A stretch of 59,181 bases of DNA from Clostridia bacterium (lineage in GTDB: Bacteria; Bacillota; Clostridia; UBA1212; UBA1255), in contig JAFZSK010000107.1 of assembly GCA_017620915.1 (NCBI GenBank), positions 1 to 59,181 on the forward strand, read 5' to 3'. Positions 18,429 to 44,868 of the stretch are shown here, one piece after another. Made by a program: the position numbers and the translations under genes. The notes below the pieces were generated by a model, which was not told where the DNA came from, did no database searches, and saw only the letters and a list, made by a program, of their open reading frames with translations. Position 1 is the first letter of the stretch, and each line of letters starts with the position of its first letter.

Positions 18429-18539
18429 TCCTTATAAGGCTTATATGGTTTATAATGCTCTGATCGGGGGCTTACGCATGAACGCATGGATGCGCACAAA
18501 TGATATTCCCATCTGCGGCCTGCATTTTCAGAAAAAGTC

Positions 18540-18710
18540 AGACAAATTCGCTCAAACGAGTGTTTTTGTCTCTCAATCTCGCTCATTTCAGGGGCAAATC
18601 AACGGTCATATTAAGACAAAGTTGTTCAAACGAGTTGCTTTGTCTTATTTTTACCCGCCTCAGCCTTCAAAAAATAAGACAATTAGTCTCAAACTGGCGT
18701 AATTGTCTTA
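18540..18710. repeat. Three related imperfect palindromes (TAAGACAA family)
   Basis: Three hairpin-forming units share outer arms and a central CTCAAAC or TTCAAAC. Unit 1 (18540-18571) has arms AGACAAA/TTTGTCT. Unit 2 (18612-18647) has perfect ten-base arms TAAGACAAAG/CTTTGTCTTA. Unit 3 (18675-18710) has perfect eleven-base arms TAAGACAATTA/TAATTGTCTTA. Starts are spaced by 72 and 63 bases. The inner arm bases differ between units but stay complementary, which points to conserved structure rather than conserved sequence. Confidence 0.75.
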
Positions 18711-18871
18711 CATTAGGGGTTTCGCGCAGTTCGCAGATGGAGCCGCTGGCGCATCGTGGACAATGCGGTGCGGAGGCCGCAATTCCTTCTACCATCGATT
18801 GTGGCCTCCCGAATGGGCATAACTAAGTGGAGAGATGCAGCCGGCGCCGGTTCTCTTAAATCCGCTTCGCT

Positions 18872-30324: not shown

Positions 30325-30404
30325 TAAGTTACAAGTTACAAGTTACAAGTTTTAAGCTGCGGCGCAAACTTATAACTTAAAACTTATAACTTATAACTTA
30401 AAAC
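30325..30404. repeat. Heptamer direct repeats forming an inverted structure
   Basis: The left side contains four AAGTTAC-like heptamers in a row, and the right side contains copies of TTATAAC and TTAAAAC. The two sides are partly complementary around TGCGGCGCAA, so a long AT-rich hairpin can form. The right arm overlaps the stop codon of the metallophosphoesterase gene. Confidence 0.65.
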
Positions 30405-31360
30405 TGATTTTTCAATATAATTTCTCCCACTTCGGGTCTTGTCCCCGAGCGCAGCCGGAGCAGCGCGCAGCCCAGGCCGGATGTCAGCAGCAGCGGGTAG
30501 CCGCCCACATCGTGCCGGCCGTAGAAAATACCCTGTTTGGGCAGTTTGTCGTCTTTGAGCACTTTAAACTCCAGGCCCGCGACCAGGCGGATCTGGCCGC
30601 CGTGGGTGTGGCCGCAGAACACGCCGTACGGGGCGTATGCGGGGAGCGGGAGCGGAGCGTTGACGTCGCGGGCAGCGCGGTCAACGGCATTGTCCCCGCT
30701 GAGCAGGATGTCGGCGTTGTGGGACGCGAGGATGAATTTGAGGCCTCGCTCGGCAGCAATGCGCGACCACTCCTCGATCAGTTCGCCGGCGGGTGTGACG
30801 CGGCTGCGCAGATCGGAGAGACCCCCGATCAAGGTGTCGGCAACGACGGTGTAATTGTCGTCCAGCACGCGCACATCGCCGGGCAGCGAGGTAAAGGTGT
30901 CAACAAACTCCGCCTTCCCGCCCGGCAGCTGCGCCGCGACTATGTTGTCGTGGTTGCCCGGAGTGATCAGCACGGGGACCCCCGCGCCGGAAGACAGACA
31001 GAATATAAAATGCTTGGCGGATTCCAGTTCTTTAGGCTCGTTGGCCAGATCGCCGGTGATCAGGATGAATGCCGGATCCATCTGCCGCACCGCTTCGAGA
31101 ATGTGGCTCCACGGCACGGGCATGGCGGCAATATGCACATCGGAAATAAAGCAGAACCGCGTATTTCCCGCTTCAGCAGCGTCAATACCGGCCGCGTCAG
31201 CACCGGTAGCTGCGGCGTCAATACCGGTCCCGTTTCCGGGCGCCGCGAACACTTCGCGCACTATCTGAAGTTCGCCCGCGTTGCGCCGCATGCGCCGGAG
31301 CACGAATATCAGCACGATGATCAGGACACAGCAGCAGATCGTAAAAATGTACCAAAACAT
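30398..31360 (-). CDS. Membrane-anchored metallophosphoesterase
   Basis: This 320-residue protein has an N-terminal transmembrane segment (about residues 3-21) and a calcineurin-type phosphoesterase domain. Its metal ligands are visible in FISDVHI, ITGDLANEP, PGNHDN, SHNADIL and FCGHTHGGQ. This pattern fits the YaeI-like group, some members of which act on lipid A or lipid precursors; the substrate here is unknown. An Ala/Gly/Asp-rich low-complexity stretch joins anchor and enzyme. It begins 13 bases after the cohesin-protein gene, with GGAGC upstream of the ATG, and so probably belongs to the same transcript. Confidence 0.88.
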   Translation of the reverse strand: MFWYIFTICCCVLIIVLIFVLRRMRRNAGELQIVREVFAAPGNGTGIDAAATGADAAGIDAAEAGNTRFCFISDVHIAAMPVPWSHILEAVRQMDPAFILITGDLANEPKELESAKHFIFCLSSGAGVPVLITPGNHDNIVAAQLPGGKAEFVDTFTSLPGDVRVLDDNYTVVADTLIGGLSDLRSRVTPAGELIEEWSRIAAERGLKFILASHNADILLSGDNAVDRAARDVNAPLPLPAYAPYGVFCGHTHGGQIRLVAGLEFKVLKDDKLPKQGIFYGRHDVGGYPLLLTSGLGCALLRLRSGTRPEVGEIILKNQF

Positions 31361-31373
31361 ACGCGCGCTCCGG

Positions 31374-33488
31374 TCAGTTCCAGTTGTCCTTCTTCATTTC
31401 CACATCGCCCGCGTTGACGTCGCGGTTCAGGCGGCGCTTCTTGTGCTTGCCGCCCTCGCCTTCGCCCGAGGCGGAGGAATCGCCGTTGTCCTTGGCGGGC
31501 GGTACGATGTCTTTCTTGAACGCCAGCAGCCAGATTATCCGGATGAGTCCGATCAACAGGAGCAGCGCCGCAAGGCCGTACGCGATGTAGCACAGCGTCT
31601 GGATAAAGTCCGAAAGCCGGTACGCCGTGTCTTCCTCCACCAGCGCAACGTGTTCGGCTTTGTTCGTGGGAGTGGGCGCCGGGGTATCGGTGATCAGGTT
31701 GCCGTGTTCGTCGGTGCGAGGCACGCGTGTGGCGTCTCCGAGCTTCGGCGGCGTTACCGGAGGCAATGTCGGCGGCACCGTTTCTTCCGGCACCGCGGTG
31801 GGCGTCCGGGTAGGATACGGCGTGCGCGTAGGCGACGGCGTGGGCTCTTTAGTGGGCGGTTCGGGGGTCCCGGTCACCTCAGGCGTATCCGACGGTTCAT
31901 CGGTAATATCGGGAGTGGCAGTCCCCTCGTCCGGCGTGGGCGTATCCTCTCCCGGCGTGGGCGTATCCTCGTCCGGCGTGGGCGTATCCTCTCCCGGCGT
32001 AGGGGTATCCTCTCCCGGTGTCGGTGTACCTTCGCCCGGCGTGGGAGTTTCATCACCCGGCGTAGGCGTATCTTCACCCGGCGTAGGTGTATCTTCACCC
32101 GGTGTGGGCGTGTCTTCACCCGGCGTGGGAGTATCGTCCTCCGCTGCGGGCGTTGTCTCCGCCGGCGCAGTATCTTCGGGCAGCTCGGTGTTCTTATTGT
32201 CATCGGGAAGGTCAATGCCCGCCGCGTTTGCCCGCACCGCCACCGCGCTCATGCCAAACTTACCGGCGGAAAACAGCAGGCACGCGCACAACAACAGCAC
32301 GAACACATCGCGGCCCGTCTGCCCGCCGCCTTTGCGGCCGCGGCGGCTTTTACGGCCCCAGATCAGGAATCCGACGGCAATACCCGCCCAGATACCCACG
32401 ATCATCGCCGCGAACAGTGCCATGATCGCGTTGGTCTTGGGCAACGTAAACGAATCCGGATCTTCCTCCGCAGTATCTGTCGGACCGCGGGGAATATCCG
32501 TTGCCGACGGTACCGCCGGAGTACCCGTCTCGACCGGCACGGTAGGTGCTTCGGTAGGGACTTCCGTTTCAGCCGGGAGCGTAGGTTCACCGGAAGCATC
32601 AGGTGACGCGGACGGATCCGGCGTTTCAGAAGCGTCCGGGGTAGTGTCGGAAGGCGTAATTTCCGGAGTAGCTGTATTGGGCACCGCAGTCGCCGGCGTC
32701 GCGGCAGGCGTACTTGTGGGTGACGCCGTAGGTGTTTTCGCCGGAGGTTCAGTGGGTGTTTCAGTCGGCGTAGCCGTGGGCGGCGCGGTGGGCGTTTTGG
32801 TCGGCGTAGCGGTAGGTGTCGCATTAGGCTTTTGGGTGGGCGTGGCGGTCGGCGTGGGTGTAGCTGTTGGTTTCGGCGTCGCGGTAGGTGTCGGCGTCGC
32901 AGTCGGCGTTGGCGTCGGCGTTTTGGTAGGCGGATTAGTGGGATCCGGTTTGATCCAGATCGTTCTCCGGTACGTCCAGCCGTAACCGTCATCTTCAGAA
33001 TACTCATTGAAATCCTCGTCTGAGTACCCCAGCATGCGGGCGGTGATTATTCCGTCGGAGTCTCGCTGCGCGTTGTCCGCGACCTTAAACACGATCTTGC
33101 AGAGCGTGCCTTTGCCGGTGCCGTTGCCCTCCGCTGACAGGATCATGATCCGCCGGTTGGCAACGTCGCTCACTTCCACGGTATCCGCCAGCATATTTGT
33201 CTTATCAGAAGAAACATACTCGAGGTTGGAGCTGAATTCAAGAAGGATCTCGACGGCCGAGATCTTCATATCGAGGTCGTAGCCCACCGTCACGGTGATC
33301 GTCTCGCCGGCAAACGCTTCGGTGCGGGACAACGTGAACAGTTCCTGCGAGGCGGCCCGGGCGGGACGTTCGCGGGAAGGGAACAGCAGTATTGACGCCG
33401 TCAACACCAGTGCCAGCAAAACTGCCGCCGCCGTCAACGCCGTGCCGCGTTTCCGTATTTTTCCGTTGTCCCTGTGCTTTCCGAACAT
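31374..33488 (-). CDS. Cohesin-domain membrane protein with two Pro/Thr stalks
   Basis: This 704-residue protein has an N-terminal signal/anchor (about 17-36) and a cohesin-like domain (about 48-170). In that domain, AFAGETITVTVGYDLD, ISAVEILLEFSSNLEYVSS and GKGTLCKIVFKVAD mark the strands. A Thr/Pro/Ala stalk follows, then a second transmembrane segment (about 353-378), a basic cytoplasmic loop (KSRRGRKGGG), a third segment (about 393-412), a second stalk of TPTPGED repeats (about 446-521) and a fourth segment (about 629-655) with a basic tail. The positive charges agree with both stalks outside. The centre looks like the end of one surface protein fused to the signal peptide of another. The adjacent gene carries a dockerin, the natural partner of cohesin. 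Confidence 0.8.
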   Translation of the reverse strand: MFGKHRDNGKIRKRGTALTAAAVLLALVLTASILLFPSRERPARAASQELFTLSRTEAFAGETITVTVGYDLDMKISAVEILLEFSSNLEYVSSDKTNMLADTVEVSDVANRRIMILSAEGNGTGKGTLCKIVFKVADNAQRDSDGIITARMLGYSDEDFNEYSEDDGYGWTYRRTIWIKPDPTNPPTKTPTPTPTATPTPTATPKPTATPTPTATPTQKPNATPTATPTKTPTAPPTATPTETPTEPPAKTPTASPTSTPAATPATAVPNTATPEITPSDTTPDASETPDPSASPDASGEPTLPAETEVPTEAPTVPVETGTPAVPSATDIPRGPTDTAEEDPDSFTLPKTNAIMALFAAMIVGIWAGIAVGFLIWGRKSRRGRKGGGQTGRDVFVLLLCACLLFSAGKFGMSAVAVRANAAGIDLPDDNKNTELPEDTAPAETTPAAEDDTPTPGEDTPTPGEDTPTPGEDTPTPGDETPTPGEGTPTPGEDTPTPGEDTPTPDEDTPTPGEDTPTPDEGTATPDITDEPSDTPEVTGTPEPPTKEPTPSPTRTPYPTRTPTAVPEETVPPTLPPVTPPKLGDATRVPRTDEHGNLITDTPAPTPTNKAEHVALVEEDTAYRLSDFIQTLCYIAYGLAALLLLIGLIRIIWLLAFKKDIVPPAKDNGDSSASGEGEGGKHKKRRLNRDVNAGDVEMKKDNWN
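31921..32150 (-). repeat. 18-bp minisatellite coding TPTPGED units
   Basis: About eleven imperfect 18-base units in the cohesin-protein gene encode (E/D)DTPTPGE-type steps. Units differ by a few bases, and two or three encode DEDTPTPD or GDETPT variants. The array could expand or shrink by slippage and change stalk length. Confidence 0.85.
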
Positions 33489-33526
33489 TCCGTTCCTCCC
33501 GCTGTATCAAAAGGGGTCTGTCCCCT

Positions 33527-35623
33527 CTACAATTCGATCTTACCCAGCAGATACTGGCGCAGTTTGGCGAAGTCGCCGATGCCGATCTTGCTGTCGCCGT
33601 TGACGTCCGCCGCATACTCGAAATCGCCGGTGATGATGCCGCCTTTCAGCAGATGCTGCCGCAGCTTCGCGAAGTCCGCGATACCGACTTTGCCGTCGCC
33701 GTTGACGTCGCCGGACACGATCACGTGCCAGTCCGCATACACGACGCCGCGGTCGGTCAATACCACCCGGGCCCCCGTAGGCAGTGCCTGCTCCGCGCCG
33801 GGCTCGCCGCCGTCGGGCAGCGTGACGGTCAATTCCGGTTCCGCCCCGCCCGCACAGCTGATCGCGCCGAGCAGTTCCGCGGCCGCGGTCCCGGGCTTCA
33901 CGCCCCGGAGCAGCATGAGGCCGTCGCCGCTTTCCGCGAGCGTCCAGCCGGACGAATCGCCAAGCCGCACTTCCGGCTCATTATATACCATCTCGCCGGC
34001 CTTTGCCACATCTATCTTGATCTGTGCGCGGTCGGTCGTGCTCCCGCTCGCGTCGATCTCCGTTACCGTCAGCGTACATAGGCCTTCCTGTGCCGGATTC
34101 CACACCAGCACCGGCTCGGTCTTAGTCACCGCCAGCGTGCGGCCGTCCGGCAGGAGCAGGGTAAATACATACGTTTTCCCGGGGGTTGCCGCATTGGCAT
34201 CGGTACCGCTGCCGGAGCCGGTCTTGCCGCTCCACTGTATCAGGCTGTGGCCGTTCTGCCGCAGCGTGCCGCCGGCGGGGGTGAGAACGTTGAGACCGTT
34301 GTTGTCCGTGTAAGCGGGCCGCACCGGGATATATTCGGCGCTGGCAACTGTTGCGGAGAGCGTGCGCGTCGCGGTCTTGCCTATGGCATTGCGGACAATG
34401 ATCCGGACCGTCTGCTGCGGCGTTTCTCCGCCCTCTCCCGCCTCCGGGGACGCCGGGCTCTCCGCGGACAACGCGGCCGGCACGCACACCACGTCCGCCT
34501 TCCCGGCGCCGCTGTCCAAGGAAGCATAGTACGCGGGATTCCAGTACTCCCCGTCGGGGATCTCCGGCAGGGCCAGCGGTTCATCGAGGATCAGCGGGGC
34601 GGCATCGGAGATGTTGACCGTCAGCGGATAACCCGCGATCCGGCCGCCGAATGTGATGGAGATGTTGACGTCCTGCGTACCTGCGTGCTTCGTGTCTACC
34701 GCAGCCGCGTCGAACCGCACCGTCACCGGCACGCCGCGCAGGTCGCGGATCTCCAGCGCTTCGGCGATCGCCGCCGCGGTCAACGCCTTCCCTTTCAGCA
34801 CGTACACCTCGCCCAGCGTTGTTCCCTCTGCCGGGGACGCGGGCAATTCGCCGGACACGCACGGGCTCGCCGGAAATCCGGCGCCGATGCTCGTCTCTTC
34901 GGCCGCTGTCAACGCCGCCTTGCCGTAGCACCACACGAAGCAGTACTCCAGCCCCTGCGCGGTCTCACGCACCGCCGAAGCACAGCCGAAGCAGGCGATA
35001 TTGGACCGGCTCAGCGTTTGTTCGCCGGAATATGTGTTGAGGATGGATCTGAGCGCGAGCCGGGCGCCGCTCGAGGCATCGGTGCACGCGTAACCGGTCG
35101 CAAAATATACTTCGAAGCCATCGATGCCGGAGATGTTGCCGATCGCCGCCTGCACCGCGTTTTCCGCCGCACGCTGAGCCGCATTGGCACTGTTTTGGCC
35201 GCTCGCGGTGTTGCCGTTGCCGTCTCGCGTGCACAAAGCGGACAACGCGCCGTACAGCGCCGCCGTTGAGAGCGCCTCCGATTCCGCCGCTGCGCCGAGC
35301 CCGCATTTGGCCCGGTGATCAGTGTAATAACCCGCGGCGGCAATATCTATCCCTGCCAGCACCGCGTCGTTGTCCCGGTAATATACCGGATCATCGCAAT
35401 TCAGCACGGGAAGCGTTCCCTCCGAAGCATGAACAATTGATTCTGAATTTATTTTTTTGCCGACTGTCCCCCATTTCGGGAGAAACGCCGCCAGAGCAAT
35501 CATTGCCAGCGCCACGCCCGCAAATGCGCTCAAAACAGCCGCAATACGCCCCTGACCCCTGCCGGACATTTCCGGCAGCGGCCGCAAGTACCGCCTGCTC
35601 TGCTGTCTCTCCGCGCTCTTCAT
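33527..35623 (-). CDS. Dockerin-bearing membrane protein with Ig-like domains
   Basis: This 698-residue protein has an N-terminal anchor or signal (about 27-47), a Cys-containing region (about 85-230) that may be a degenerate CAP/SCP-like domain, two or three Ig-like beta domains, and a type I dockerin in the last 65 residues. The dockerin has two calcium-binding repeats, DVNGDGKVGIADFAKLRQHLL and DVNGDSKIGIGDFAKLRQYLL, nearly identical, so it could bind in two orientations. The start is the ATG at 35623 after GGGGGAA; a TTG seven codons earlier is less likely. It lies 38 bases upstream of the cohesin-protein gene, so both are probably made together. Confidence 0.82.
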   Translation of the reverse strand: MKSAERQQSRRYLRPLPEMSGRGQGRIAAVLSAFAGVALAMIALAAFLPKWGTVGKKINSESIVHASEGTLPVLNCDDPVYYRDNDAVLAGIDIAAAGYYTDHRAKCGLGAAAESEALSTAALYGALSALCTRDGNGNTASGQNSANAAQRAAENAVQAAIGNISGIDGFEVYFATGYACTDASSGARLALRSILNTYSGEQTLSRSNIACFGCASAVRETAQGLEYCFVWCYGKAALTAAEETSIGAGFPASPCVSGELPASPAEGTTLGEVYVLKGKALTAAAIAEALEIRDLRGVPVTVRFDAAAVDTKHAGTQDVNISITFGGRIAGYPLTVNISDAAPLILDEPLALPEIPDGEYWNPAYYASLDSGAGKADVVCVPAALSAESPASPEAGEGGETPQQTVRIIVRNAIGKTATRTLSATVASAEYIPVRPAYTDNNGLNVLTPAGGTLRQNGHSLIQWSGKTGSGSGTDANAATPGKTYVFTLLLPDGRTLAVTKTEPVLVWNPAQEGLCTLTVTEIDASGSTTDRAQIKIDVAKAGEMVYNEPEVRLGDSSGWTLAESGDGLMLLRGVKPGTAAAELLGAISCAGGAEPELTVTLPDGGEPGAEQALPTGARVVLTDRGVVYADWHVIVSGDVNGDGKVGIADFAKLRQHLLKGGIITGDFEYAADVNGDSKIGIGDFAKLRQYLLGKIEL

Positions 35624-36041
35624 TTGTGTCAGTTCCCCCGTCAACCGGGTCTTATCTTCTGTGCCTTAACGGTCGCAAACACTGTATGGCGCCACTTCGC
35701 GGCCGCGTACTTGTCTTGTGTCCGCGTGTGACAATCATCCAAATTAGAGTATATCACAAAAACAGCGGGATTTCCATACTTAAATTATACTTCTTATCTG
35801 AGTAATCTTGGCGTAGGCCGAAATCTCTTCATTTTGTCTTTTCGGCCTACGTCGCAAGGCGAAACGTAGGCCGAAATCTTTTCATTTTAATTTTTCGGCC
35901 TACGTGATGAGGCGGAACGTAGGCCGAAACCCCTTCATTTGATTTTTTCGGCCTACGCCATGAGGTAGAACGTAGGCCGAAATCCTTTCAGTCGATCTTT
36001 TCGGCCTACGAATCAAAAGTGAATGTAGGCCGACAGGATAA
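35624..36041. other. Intergenic region carrying the hairpin array
   Basis: About 418 bases without a gene. The right half is the 53-bp-period hairpin array. The left part (35624-35811) holds the upstream region of the dockerin gene; a possible -10 box TATACT is visible on the minus strand, but no good -35 box. Confidence 0.6.
35812..36035. repeat. Tandem hairpin array, 53-bp period, four full units and a partial one
   Basis: Full units at 35812-35851, 35865-35904, 35918-35957 and 35971-36010 are each 40 bases: arm CGTAGGCCGAAA, a 16-base loop, arm TTTCGGCCTACG. The arms are identical in all four. The loops vary around a conserved TTCA, and the 13-base spacers vary around GAGG and a final GAA. 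A fifth unit starts at 36024 (TGTAGGCCGACA) but is cut off after its left arm. The array begins seven bases after the stop of the lipoprotein gene, so it would lie in that gene's 3' untranslated RNA as four consecutive stem-loops. Confidence 0.95.
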
Positions 36042-37004
36042 TCAGCGCTTGACCTCAGTCCCGCCCCACTCCACGACCGTGAATCCGGTGCGTTCGGGCG
36101 CGGTGAGCTGCTGGGGCGGGATGTTGACCGCGTGCTCCAGCGGCATATACGCCATCAGGACCCGGATGACAGAGTCGGGCTCGGGCGAAACGGTCAGTTT
36201 CACGTTGTCCGCATATGTTGAGGTCTGGAACGAGATCAGATTGTAAGCGTTGTTCTGCAGGATGGGCAGCCAGTAGATGATGAATTCGTTGGCCTCCCGG
36301 GCCGACAGGCCGAGCTGCGGCAACGTTTCCGCCAGGAACCGCGCCGTATCCGCACCCTTCACGCAGAAGCCGGACGAAAGGTCGAACCAGTCATAATTGC
36401 CGGCGCCTTCCCAGTAGAGCGCGTAATACTCGCTGCCGTCGGGGAAGACCAGCGTGCCGTCGGGGCGGGCAACAATATTCTGCCACCCGTCCGCACCGTA
36501 CTCCGGGTACGTGCAGGTCAATTCGCCGTCAAAATCCAGTGCGACGGAGCAGACGGTATCCTCTTCGGGGTACAGGTATATGATGGGTTTGGCGTATGCT
36601 GCTCCGTCATCGGATAAGCATATGCTTTTTACTTTGCTGATCACATGTTTGCAGACCAGATCGCCTTTCGATCCGCCGGAGTTTATTATTTTTTCTTCGG
36701 CTTTGTAATTCCGGCCGTAAAACTCTATCCGGACGCTGCCTGTGTAAATTACAGAGTCCCTGAATTCCTTTGCGGCACCGGGATAATACACGTATACGAG
36801 GTCGCCCAGCCTGCCGTTGGATCTGCCATAGCCGGCGATCTCGTTTTCGTTAATATACAGCACACTTATGCTCATTGAATACAGTTTGTTCGGTCTCAAT
36901 GCGCTGTCGTCGTTAAAGTCAAATTCAACAGGCTTGCACGACACAGTCAACGCCAGCAGCACCAGCGCCAATATAAGCAATACTCCTTTTTTAATAACAG
37001 ACAT
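36042..37004 (-). CDS. Lipoprotein of the uncharacterised KPIIYLYPEE family
   Basis: This 320-residue protein has a signal sequence with lipobox ending at Cys23 (TVSC). Its second half carries a distinctive conserved core: KPIIYLYPEED, then FDGELTCTYPEYGADGW, LYWEG, FCVKGADTARFLAE, LGLSAREANEFIIYWLP and NAYNLISFQT. I recall such sequences as a widespread uncharacterised family in gut Clostridia, sometimes secreted, but I know no function. The first half (about 25-150) is variable beta-rich sequence. It is 49 bases downstream of the large membrane protein gene and may be part of that transcript. The hairpin array follows its stop codon directly. Confidence 0.8.
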   Translation of the reverse strand: MSVIKKGVLLILALVLLALTVSCKPVEFDFNDDSALRPNKLYSMSISVLYINENEIAGYGRSNGRLGDLVYVYYPGAAKEFRDSVIYTGSVRIEFYGRNYKAEEKIINSGGSKGDLVCKHVISKVKSICLSDDGAAYAKPIIYLYPEEDTVCSVALDFDGELTCTYPEYGADGWQNIVARPDGTLVFPDGSEYYALYWEGAGNYDWFDLSSGFCVKGADTARFLAETLPQLGLSAREANEFIIYWLPILQNNAYNLISFQTSTYADNVKLTVSPEPDSVIRVLMAYMPLEHAVNIPPQQLTAPERTGFTVVEWGGTEVKR

Positions 37005-44782: not shown

Positions 44783-44830
44783 TTGCTCACCTCCCGCACC
44801 GCCGCGACCGCTTCGGTTTCGGCTTTGCTG

Positions 44831-44857
44831 TTAGCACTCTATCACGTCGAGTGCTAA
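44831..44857 (-). promoter_or_regulatory. CIRCE operator of the hrcA operon
   Basis: A perfect consensus: TTAGCACTC, nine bases, GAGTGCTAA. It lies just downstream of the hrcA -10 box, so bound HrcA would block transcription. Confidence 0.98.
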
Positions 44858-44868
44858 CAACTATGCGT

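Follow-up and report, generated by a model that had tools for sequence, protein, structure and literature searches.

A short tandem array of hairpins at an exact 53-bp period lies immediately behind a lipoprotein-like ORF in the window, that is, the whole 59,181-nucleotide stretch of DNA of a Clostridia bacterium analyzed here. The question raised by this locus is whether such a structure serves the transcript or the chromosome in which it lies, belongs to a population of mobile repeats, or results from neutral mutational processes.

The geometry given in the initial annotation, a 53-bp period with four 40-nt units, perfect 12-bp arms, and a truncated fifth unit, was borne out by the coordinates (table 1). 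The layout of a unit is CGTAGGCCGAAA-(16)-TTTCGGCCTACG, with exact arms in 4/4 full units, and Tandem Repeats Finder reported a period of 53 with 3.8–4.2 copies. Among the four units, all 24 arm columns are invariant, compared with 7 of 16 loop columns (Fisher P-value = 4e-5). The conserved cores proposed outside the arms stood only in part: TTCA is present in all four loops, but GAGG is missing from one of the three full spacers, each of which ends in either GAA or AAA. Each window unit tested folded as single-stranded DNA at about −12 kcal/mol, compared with about −2 to −3 for shuffled sequences. An assembly artefact, which had been considered possible, was ruled out because homologous arrays of equal period occur in independently assembled MAGs from different projects. 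Array-rich loci do break assemblies: several contigs of the source genome (G000) and of Mageeibacillus sp. UBA1255 (G010) end inside arrays, and array copy numbers are therefore lower bounds.

Table 1. Hairpin elements and adjacent ORFs; positions are those of the window unless a locus (L) is named.
Feature	Position	Strand	Description	Evidence
Hairpin unit 1 (family A)	35812..35851	-	12-bp arms, 16-nt loop	Sequence, ssDNA folding
Hairpin unit 2	35865..35904	-		Sequence
Hairpin unit 3	35918..35957	-		Sequence
Hairpin unit 4	35971..36010	-		Sequence
Truncated fifth unit	36024..36033	-	One arm, TGTAGGCCGA, in 53-bp register	Sequence
Single A′ unit	18771..18810	-	GGAGGCC[G/A]CAAT arms	Hairpin search
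Family C composite	18531..18720	+	Three hairpins (AAGACAA/TTGTCTT arms), dispersed in genome	
Other family C copy	L073 3779-3955			
Other family C copy	L220 16957-17145			
Other family C copy	L098 12252-12428			
Other family C copy	L097 14811-14913			
Lipoprotein-like ORF	36042..37004	-	Stop codon 8 bp from array; no Pfam match	ORF and Pfam search
Dockerin-type ORF	33527..35644	-	Downstream of array, which lies ~170 bp upstream of its start (~400 bp with shorter start)	

Several other features were observed in the window. Downstream of the array, a cohesin-domain ORF with long Thr-Pro repeats adjoins the dockerin type I ORF (31374-35644), forming a cellulosome-like pair. A CIRCE-like (HrcA) operator, TGTTAGCACTC-N9-GAGTGCTAACA, lies at 44829-44859 upstream of the neighboring gene, and a similar hairpin is found upstream of the homolog in the congener G011. 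Intergenic DNA of the source genome also contains GCCATTTGCC-like tracts and short repeats with a 7-bp unit (AACTTAT, AAGTTAC), at 30326-30405 and at L156 2485-2600.

A search with the window arms in their own assembly (2.57 Mb, 121 contigs) revealed more arrays on further contigs. A covariance model for family A, made from 34 units, gave 93 matches in the source genome, or ~84 A/A′ units at ~20 loci once strand duplicates were removed, and the prediction of many dispersed copies was thus confirmed. A single conserved regulatory site, the other possibility raised at the outset, was ruled out by these some 20 arrays. In sampled stretches, 104 units of A, A′, and B were counted. Family A arrays are intergenic, with units head-to-tail and mostly 53/54 bp apart; arrays start and stop at hairpin arms, and their flanks are unrelated. 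The arms of the sister subfamily A′ are GGAGGCC[G/A]CAAT/ATTG[C/T]GGCCTCC. When sampled stretches were scanned with a generic detector of hairpins, four additional families were found, whose counts are therefore lower bounds: B (arms GTCAGCCACAA, period 53/54 bp), C (TAAGACAA, 61–64 bp), D (GGCGGTATCCC, 53 bp), and E (CGTCTAGCAAA, about 80 bp). Family B often adjoins A, and the two abut at three loci with nearly equal spacing. Judging from sequence, the arm sets GGAGGCCGAAA, GGAGGCC[G/A]CAA, and GTCAGCCACAA look like steps in one series.

The composite form of family C measures ~240 bp: its three hairpins are joined by conserved linkers (CTCGCTCATTT) and followed by a tail (CAGATGCAGCCGG). Several copies are dispersed in the genome, some of which have been cut down to the last hairpin and tail. 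Clusters of hairpins with mixed arms, ~80 or 260 bp apart, were also observed (L082 13912-14296, L090 218-523, and L132 3386-3690). These clusters have common linker words, GGGCGCCTTCTCT in the source genome and GCTCATTT-like words in both the source genome and G011.

We then examined the distribution of the hairpins in 16 genomes from four genera of the family. The superfamily is present in most genomes of the source organism's own genus. The exact window arms were not found in these relatives, but homologous arrays of the same period with an altered outer stem were. A scan of 84,980 species for exact window arm pairs gave no match outside the source genome, and viral contigs contained no exact window arms. 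In G010, homologous arrays have similar loops and spacers, a period of 54, and arms ATACGGCCGAAA/TTTCGGCCGTGC, and its A′ type is ATACGGCCACAA/TTGCGGCCGTAC. Arms of Clostridia bacterium RGIG8345 (G012; water buffalo rumen) are GCACGGCCACAA/TTGTGGCCGTGC, those of uncultured Ruminococcus sp. RUG12823 (G014) are CTGTAGCC[G/A]CAA/TTG[C/T]GGCTACAC, and congener G013 has two A-type units. Across five species, 98 of 107 neighbor gaps have a spacing of 53 or 54, and most remaining gaps are multiples. Hairpins also show reciprocal absence: those with CGGCCGAAA number 30 in G010 and 0 in the source genome, and those with AGGCCGAAA number 28 in the source genome and 1 in G010, where the single copy lies beside a T-run and what resembles the 3′ end of a tRNA.

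The conserved arms had been taken as a sign of selection on the stem or of gene conversion. We analyzed covariation in 26 distinct units from five species, using 500 shuffles and a control in which the pairing was slid. In the 12-bp helix, 92.6% of cells are paired, compared with 73.8% after shuffling, and 67 cells are changed on both sides, compared with 27.5 ± 4.0 (reached in 0/500 shuffles). The covariation score is 0.515, whereas shuffled units gave 0.176 and slid partners no more than 0.173. One stem pair is seen as A-T, C-G, and T-A in different species. These values apply to a collection whose inner GCC core was constrained and whose outer five pairs were left free. Shuffle tests may give inflated values when sequences are related; even so, the conclusion about structure is backed by the slid control and by stem changes found in several species. 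Thus, covariation far above both controls is strong evidence that the hairpin structure is what is maintained, which supports the view that the stem is under selection or actively maintained. Within family A alone, covariation was uninformative because the arms hardly vary, and in family C it was weak and mostly in the outer pairs.

The outer stem also differs between species as a set. The outer bases are AG/CT in 78/79 A and A′ units of the source genome, CG/CG in 46/49 A and A′ units of G010, and TA/TA in RUG12823. Since the inner distinction between A and A′ is common to the source genome and G010, the outer bases seem to have been changed in both subfamilies within a genome. A loops of G010 have a likeness of 0.65 to their own A′ loops and 0.47 to A loops of the other species, and a weaker pattern was observed in the source genome. 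Concerted turnover of this kind is expected if the arrays spread recently from a small number of sources or if they share a recognizing factor, and independent drift of the arrays does not produce it.

These observations bear on the possibility of neutral satellites, in which palindrome-templated correction at replication would keep the arms and slippage would homogenize the units, with neither selection nor an enzyme. Palindrome-templated correction is an established mutational process that yields both perfect arms and covariation, and the genome has other intergenic tandem repeats. However, this process would leave unexplained why arms are alike at some 20 unlinked loci whose loops and spacers differ, and why two subfamilies show the same outer-base change genome-wide. 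We consider it improbable.

In A′ hairpins of the source genome and G010, one constant position is not Watson-Crick paired, being G-T on one strand and A-C on the other. Arrays from Peptostreptococcaceae and Prevotellaceae MAGs (L248, L316) have this wobble at the same position, which was allowed but not required by the search pattern. Since it can be folded on one strand only, this pair hints at a functional strand.

The location of the array suggested a role in the 3′ untranslated region of the lipoprotein transcript, as a stabilizer, an attenuator, or a regulator site. The array begins 8 bp past the lipoprotein stop, and the complete array gave a strong fold as RNA (z = −9.1). A scan of the window against Rfam found only 5S rRNA and tRNA and no match for the array, and no T-run, as in an intrinsic terminator, was present past either array end. 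To place other arrays, gene ends were taken from a simple gene caller trained on the analyzed stretches. Around 26 arrays, 32 of 47 neighboring gene ends are 5′ and 15 are 3′, and there is no strand preference toward neighboring genes (24/47). No array follows the lipoprotein homologs in congeners G011 and G013 or the paralog on contig C85 of the source genome; in G012, the contig stops at that point. Thus, with no strand bias, no specificity for 3′ ends, and absence from most homologous flanks examined, RNA stabilization does not hold as a general role, and an RNA-level element at this locus appears very unlikely. The arrays show no consistent relation to transcription.

The main rival, in our opinion, is a chromosome element with a host function. 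Hairpins in phase would form cruciforms or be bound by gyrase or a nucleoid protein, and would thereby buffer supercoiling or insulate promoters; such a chromosome-structural role has been proposed for BIMEs in Escherichia coli. Five species and several arm families retain the 53/54 period (about 63 in family C), the inner arm core is invariant, and arrays often lie between divergent genes and, as judged by eye, 20–80 bp upstream of promoter-like sequence. A period this strict, close to five turns of the helix, and an inner arm that does not vary could be explained just as well by a function in the host. However, an enrichment between divergent genes that was apparent by gap count was gone when intergenic bases were considered: array placement tracks the share of intergenic bases (11 of 24 in divergent gaps, P-value = 0.20). 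No common class of neighboring genes was noticed either. Array orientation relative to local GC skew, a proxy for the lagging strand, gave 18/28 (P-value = 0.18).

Comparison of homologous flanks also argues against a host element. Among ten source-genome flanks with at least two hairpins, eight have no hairpin at the homologous flank of the relative and two have any. For 119 reciprocal pairs, no significant excess of conserved array position was found (any hairpin, P-value = 0.06; two or more, P-value = 1). Arrays are thus present in one species and absent in another, differences whose direction, gain or loss, is unpolarized. We therefore regard a host-functional element as rather unlikely. 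Two pairs of orthologous upstream regions have hairpins of different families in the two species (G000 C3:3779-4053 and G010 C7:56732-56990; G000 C7:11111-11148 and G010 C69:1-343). Upstream of a gene which we take to be argG from its KKVVLAYSGGLDTS-like N-terminal sequence, the source genome has a family C element, and G010 has no hairpin element there but a short repeat of the GGGACAGGTCCC type; this empty-site comparison gave no exact boundaries. No case of a clean insertion, with boundaries at the target site, was seen for family A.

The initial annotation had also compared the array with REP/REPIN elements handled by RAYT transposases. In enterobacterial REPs, GTAG lies next to a GCC stem, and the window arms likewise have GTAG beside a GCC stem. 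Y1 transposases are present in five of seven genomes of the genus and in none of the three other genera. The source genome has one, close to the NCBIfam model for REP-associated tyrosine transposases (74.8 bits, cut-off 80). However, when this locus and nine congener loci were scanned over ~1.5 kb per side where the contig allowed, no A–E hairpin was found, and linkage of the hairpins to RAYT was rejected. All ten loci (L035, L121–L129) are flanked by GGGACAG/CTGTCCC motifs, which are also scattered in the source genome. Moreover, RUG12823 has arrays, but a RAYT was not found in its 70% complete genome. The NHVH and YIHLNP motifs of the source-genome RAYT fit subclass 2.1, for which REPs have not been reported (PMC6006769). 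Located beside another repeat and belonging to such a subclass, the RAYT is a weak candidate mobilizer.

The structure of the hairpins points in the same direction. REPs have a stem of 7–20 bp with a loop of 2–5 nt, or are bulged long hairpins (PMC6006769), whereas the stem here is 12 bp and the loop 16–17 nt. GTAG is inside the perfect window stem instead of forming an unpaired 5′ tag, and its position is occupied elsewhere by GGAG/CTMC, TACG/CGTR, GCACG/CGTGC, or CTGTA/TACAC. In place of the inverted doublets of REPINs and BIMEs, array units have one orientation at 53/54 bp. Mobilization of REP/REPIN elements by the RAYT of the genus is thus a poor candidate. The comparison with REPs holds for the dispersed, extragenic, multi-copy palindromes, and fails for tag, loop, orientation, and RAYT linkage.

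Comparison with known systems places the hairpins more precisely. Like GTAG/CGTC REPs and BIMEs, they are short extragenic palindromes in many copies; a genome has several families, their sequences are specific to the lineage, and they occur in clusters and with neighbors of mixed family; unlike these REPs, they have no unpaired 5′ tag, longer loops (16–17 vs. 2–5 nt), and no RAYT beside them, and their hosts, Clostridia, belong to none of the phyla that the REP survey lists (PMC3733652, PMC6006769). Pseudomonas REPINs also form within-genome populations of hairpin DNA, and some ordered tandem REP/REPIN arrays have been reported, but a REPIN consists of two REPs in inverted orientation and is linked to a RAYT, whereas the unit here is a single hairpin in direct repeat (PMC3116915). 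MITEs are likewise non-autonomous and intergenic, with terminal complementarity, and family C resembles a composite dispersed element; the unit here, in contrast, is a 40-nt hairpin. CRISPR arrays share palindromic sequence at regular spacing, but no unique spacers are present here, as both loops and spacers show homology from unit to unit and from array to array, and the arrays occupy some 20 loci.

On balance, we lean toward the explanation that the window array belongs to a superfamily of extragenic palindromes with dispersed copies, which is REP-like, non-autonomous selfish DNA spread via a putative hairpin-recognizing factor. The repeat unit is a hairpin of 40–41 nt, with 12-bp arms, a 16–17-nt loop with an A-rich core, and 13-nt spacers, repeated head-to-tail every 53/54 bp. 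Fresh arrays would arise in intergenic regions, probably by DNA mobilization through an enzyme that reads the hairpin, and their size would rise and fall by tandem duplication, with the hairpins favoring slippage and unequal exchange. A single strand in folded form, or a cruciform, may be what the trans-acting factor reads, along with outer stem bases specific to the species, and the arms would thereby stay complementary; shifts in recognition specificity would then turn the arms over together genome-wide. Against this selfish-DNA explanation, the sole Y1 transposase of the source genome is associated with another repeat.

We also searched 84,980 species with a pattern of two tandem GCCRCAA hairpins. 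Among 82 matched stretches, most are chance matches or single hairpins, and 13 outside the genus have at least two properly paired hairpins. Several of these are convincing 53–55-bp arrays, with seven and eight units in Peptostreptococcaceae Reindeer_1_mag_186, about ten in Prevotellaceae RUG446, and four in Bacillota Tb.RUG.297; Chlamydiales, Prevotella, and Bacteroidales have pairs only. MAG labels may be wrong and the arm core was fixed by the search, so these matches do not imply common descent. A tentative extension is that the hairpins form a distinct and widespread tandem class, with a period of 53–55 bp, two to ten units, and arms often with a GCCRCAA core, occurring also in Peptostreptococcaceae, Prevotellaceae, other Bacteroidales, and Chlamydiales. 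This class might be copied by a putative factor reading the folded strand, with the outer bases as a species tag that coevolves genome-wide.

Comparable repeat populations, in the form of REP/REPIN-RAYT systems, are known mainly from Proteobacteria and from some further phyla. Our literature search, which covered few subscription papers, found no description of these arrays. In lifestyle they are REP-like; by tag, loop, orientation, and linkage they are outside the REP/REPIN-RAYT definition. They represent a population in Clostridia, in uncultured rumen and gut bacteria, with another geometry, a hairpin that is kept, stems that turn over genome-wide between sister species, and no cognate RAYT. 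This raises the testable question of which factor reads the hairpin, and why the period is 53/54 bp.
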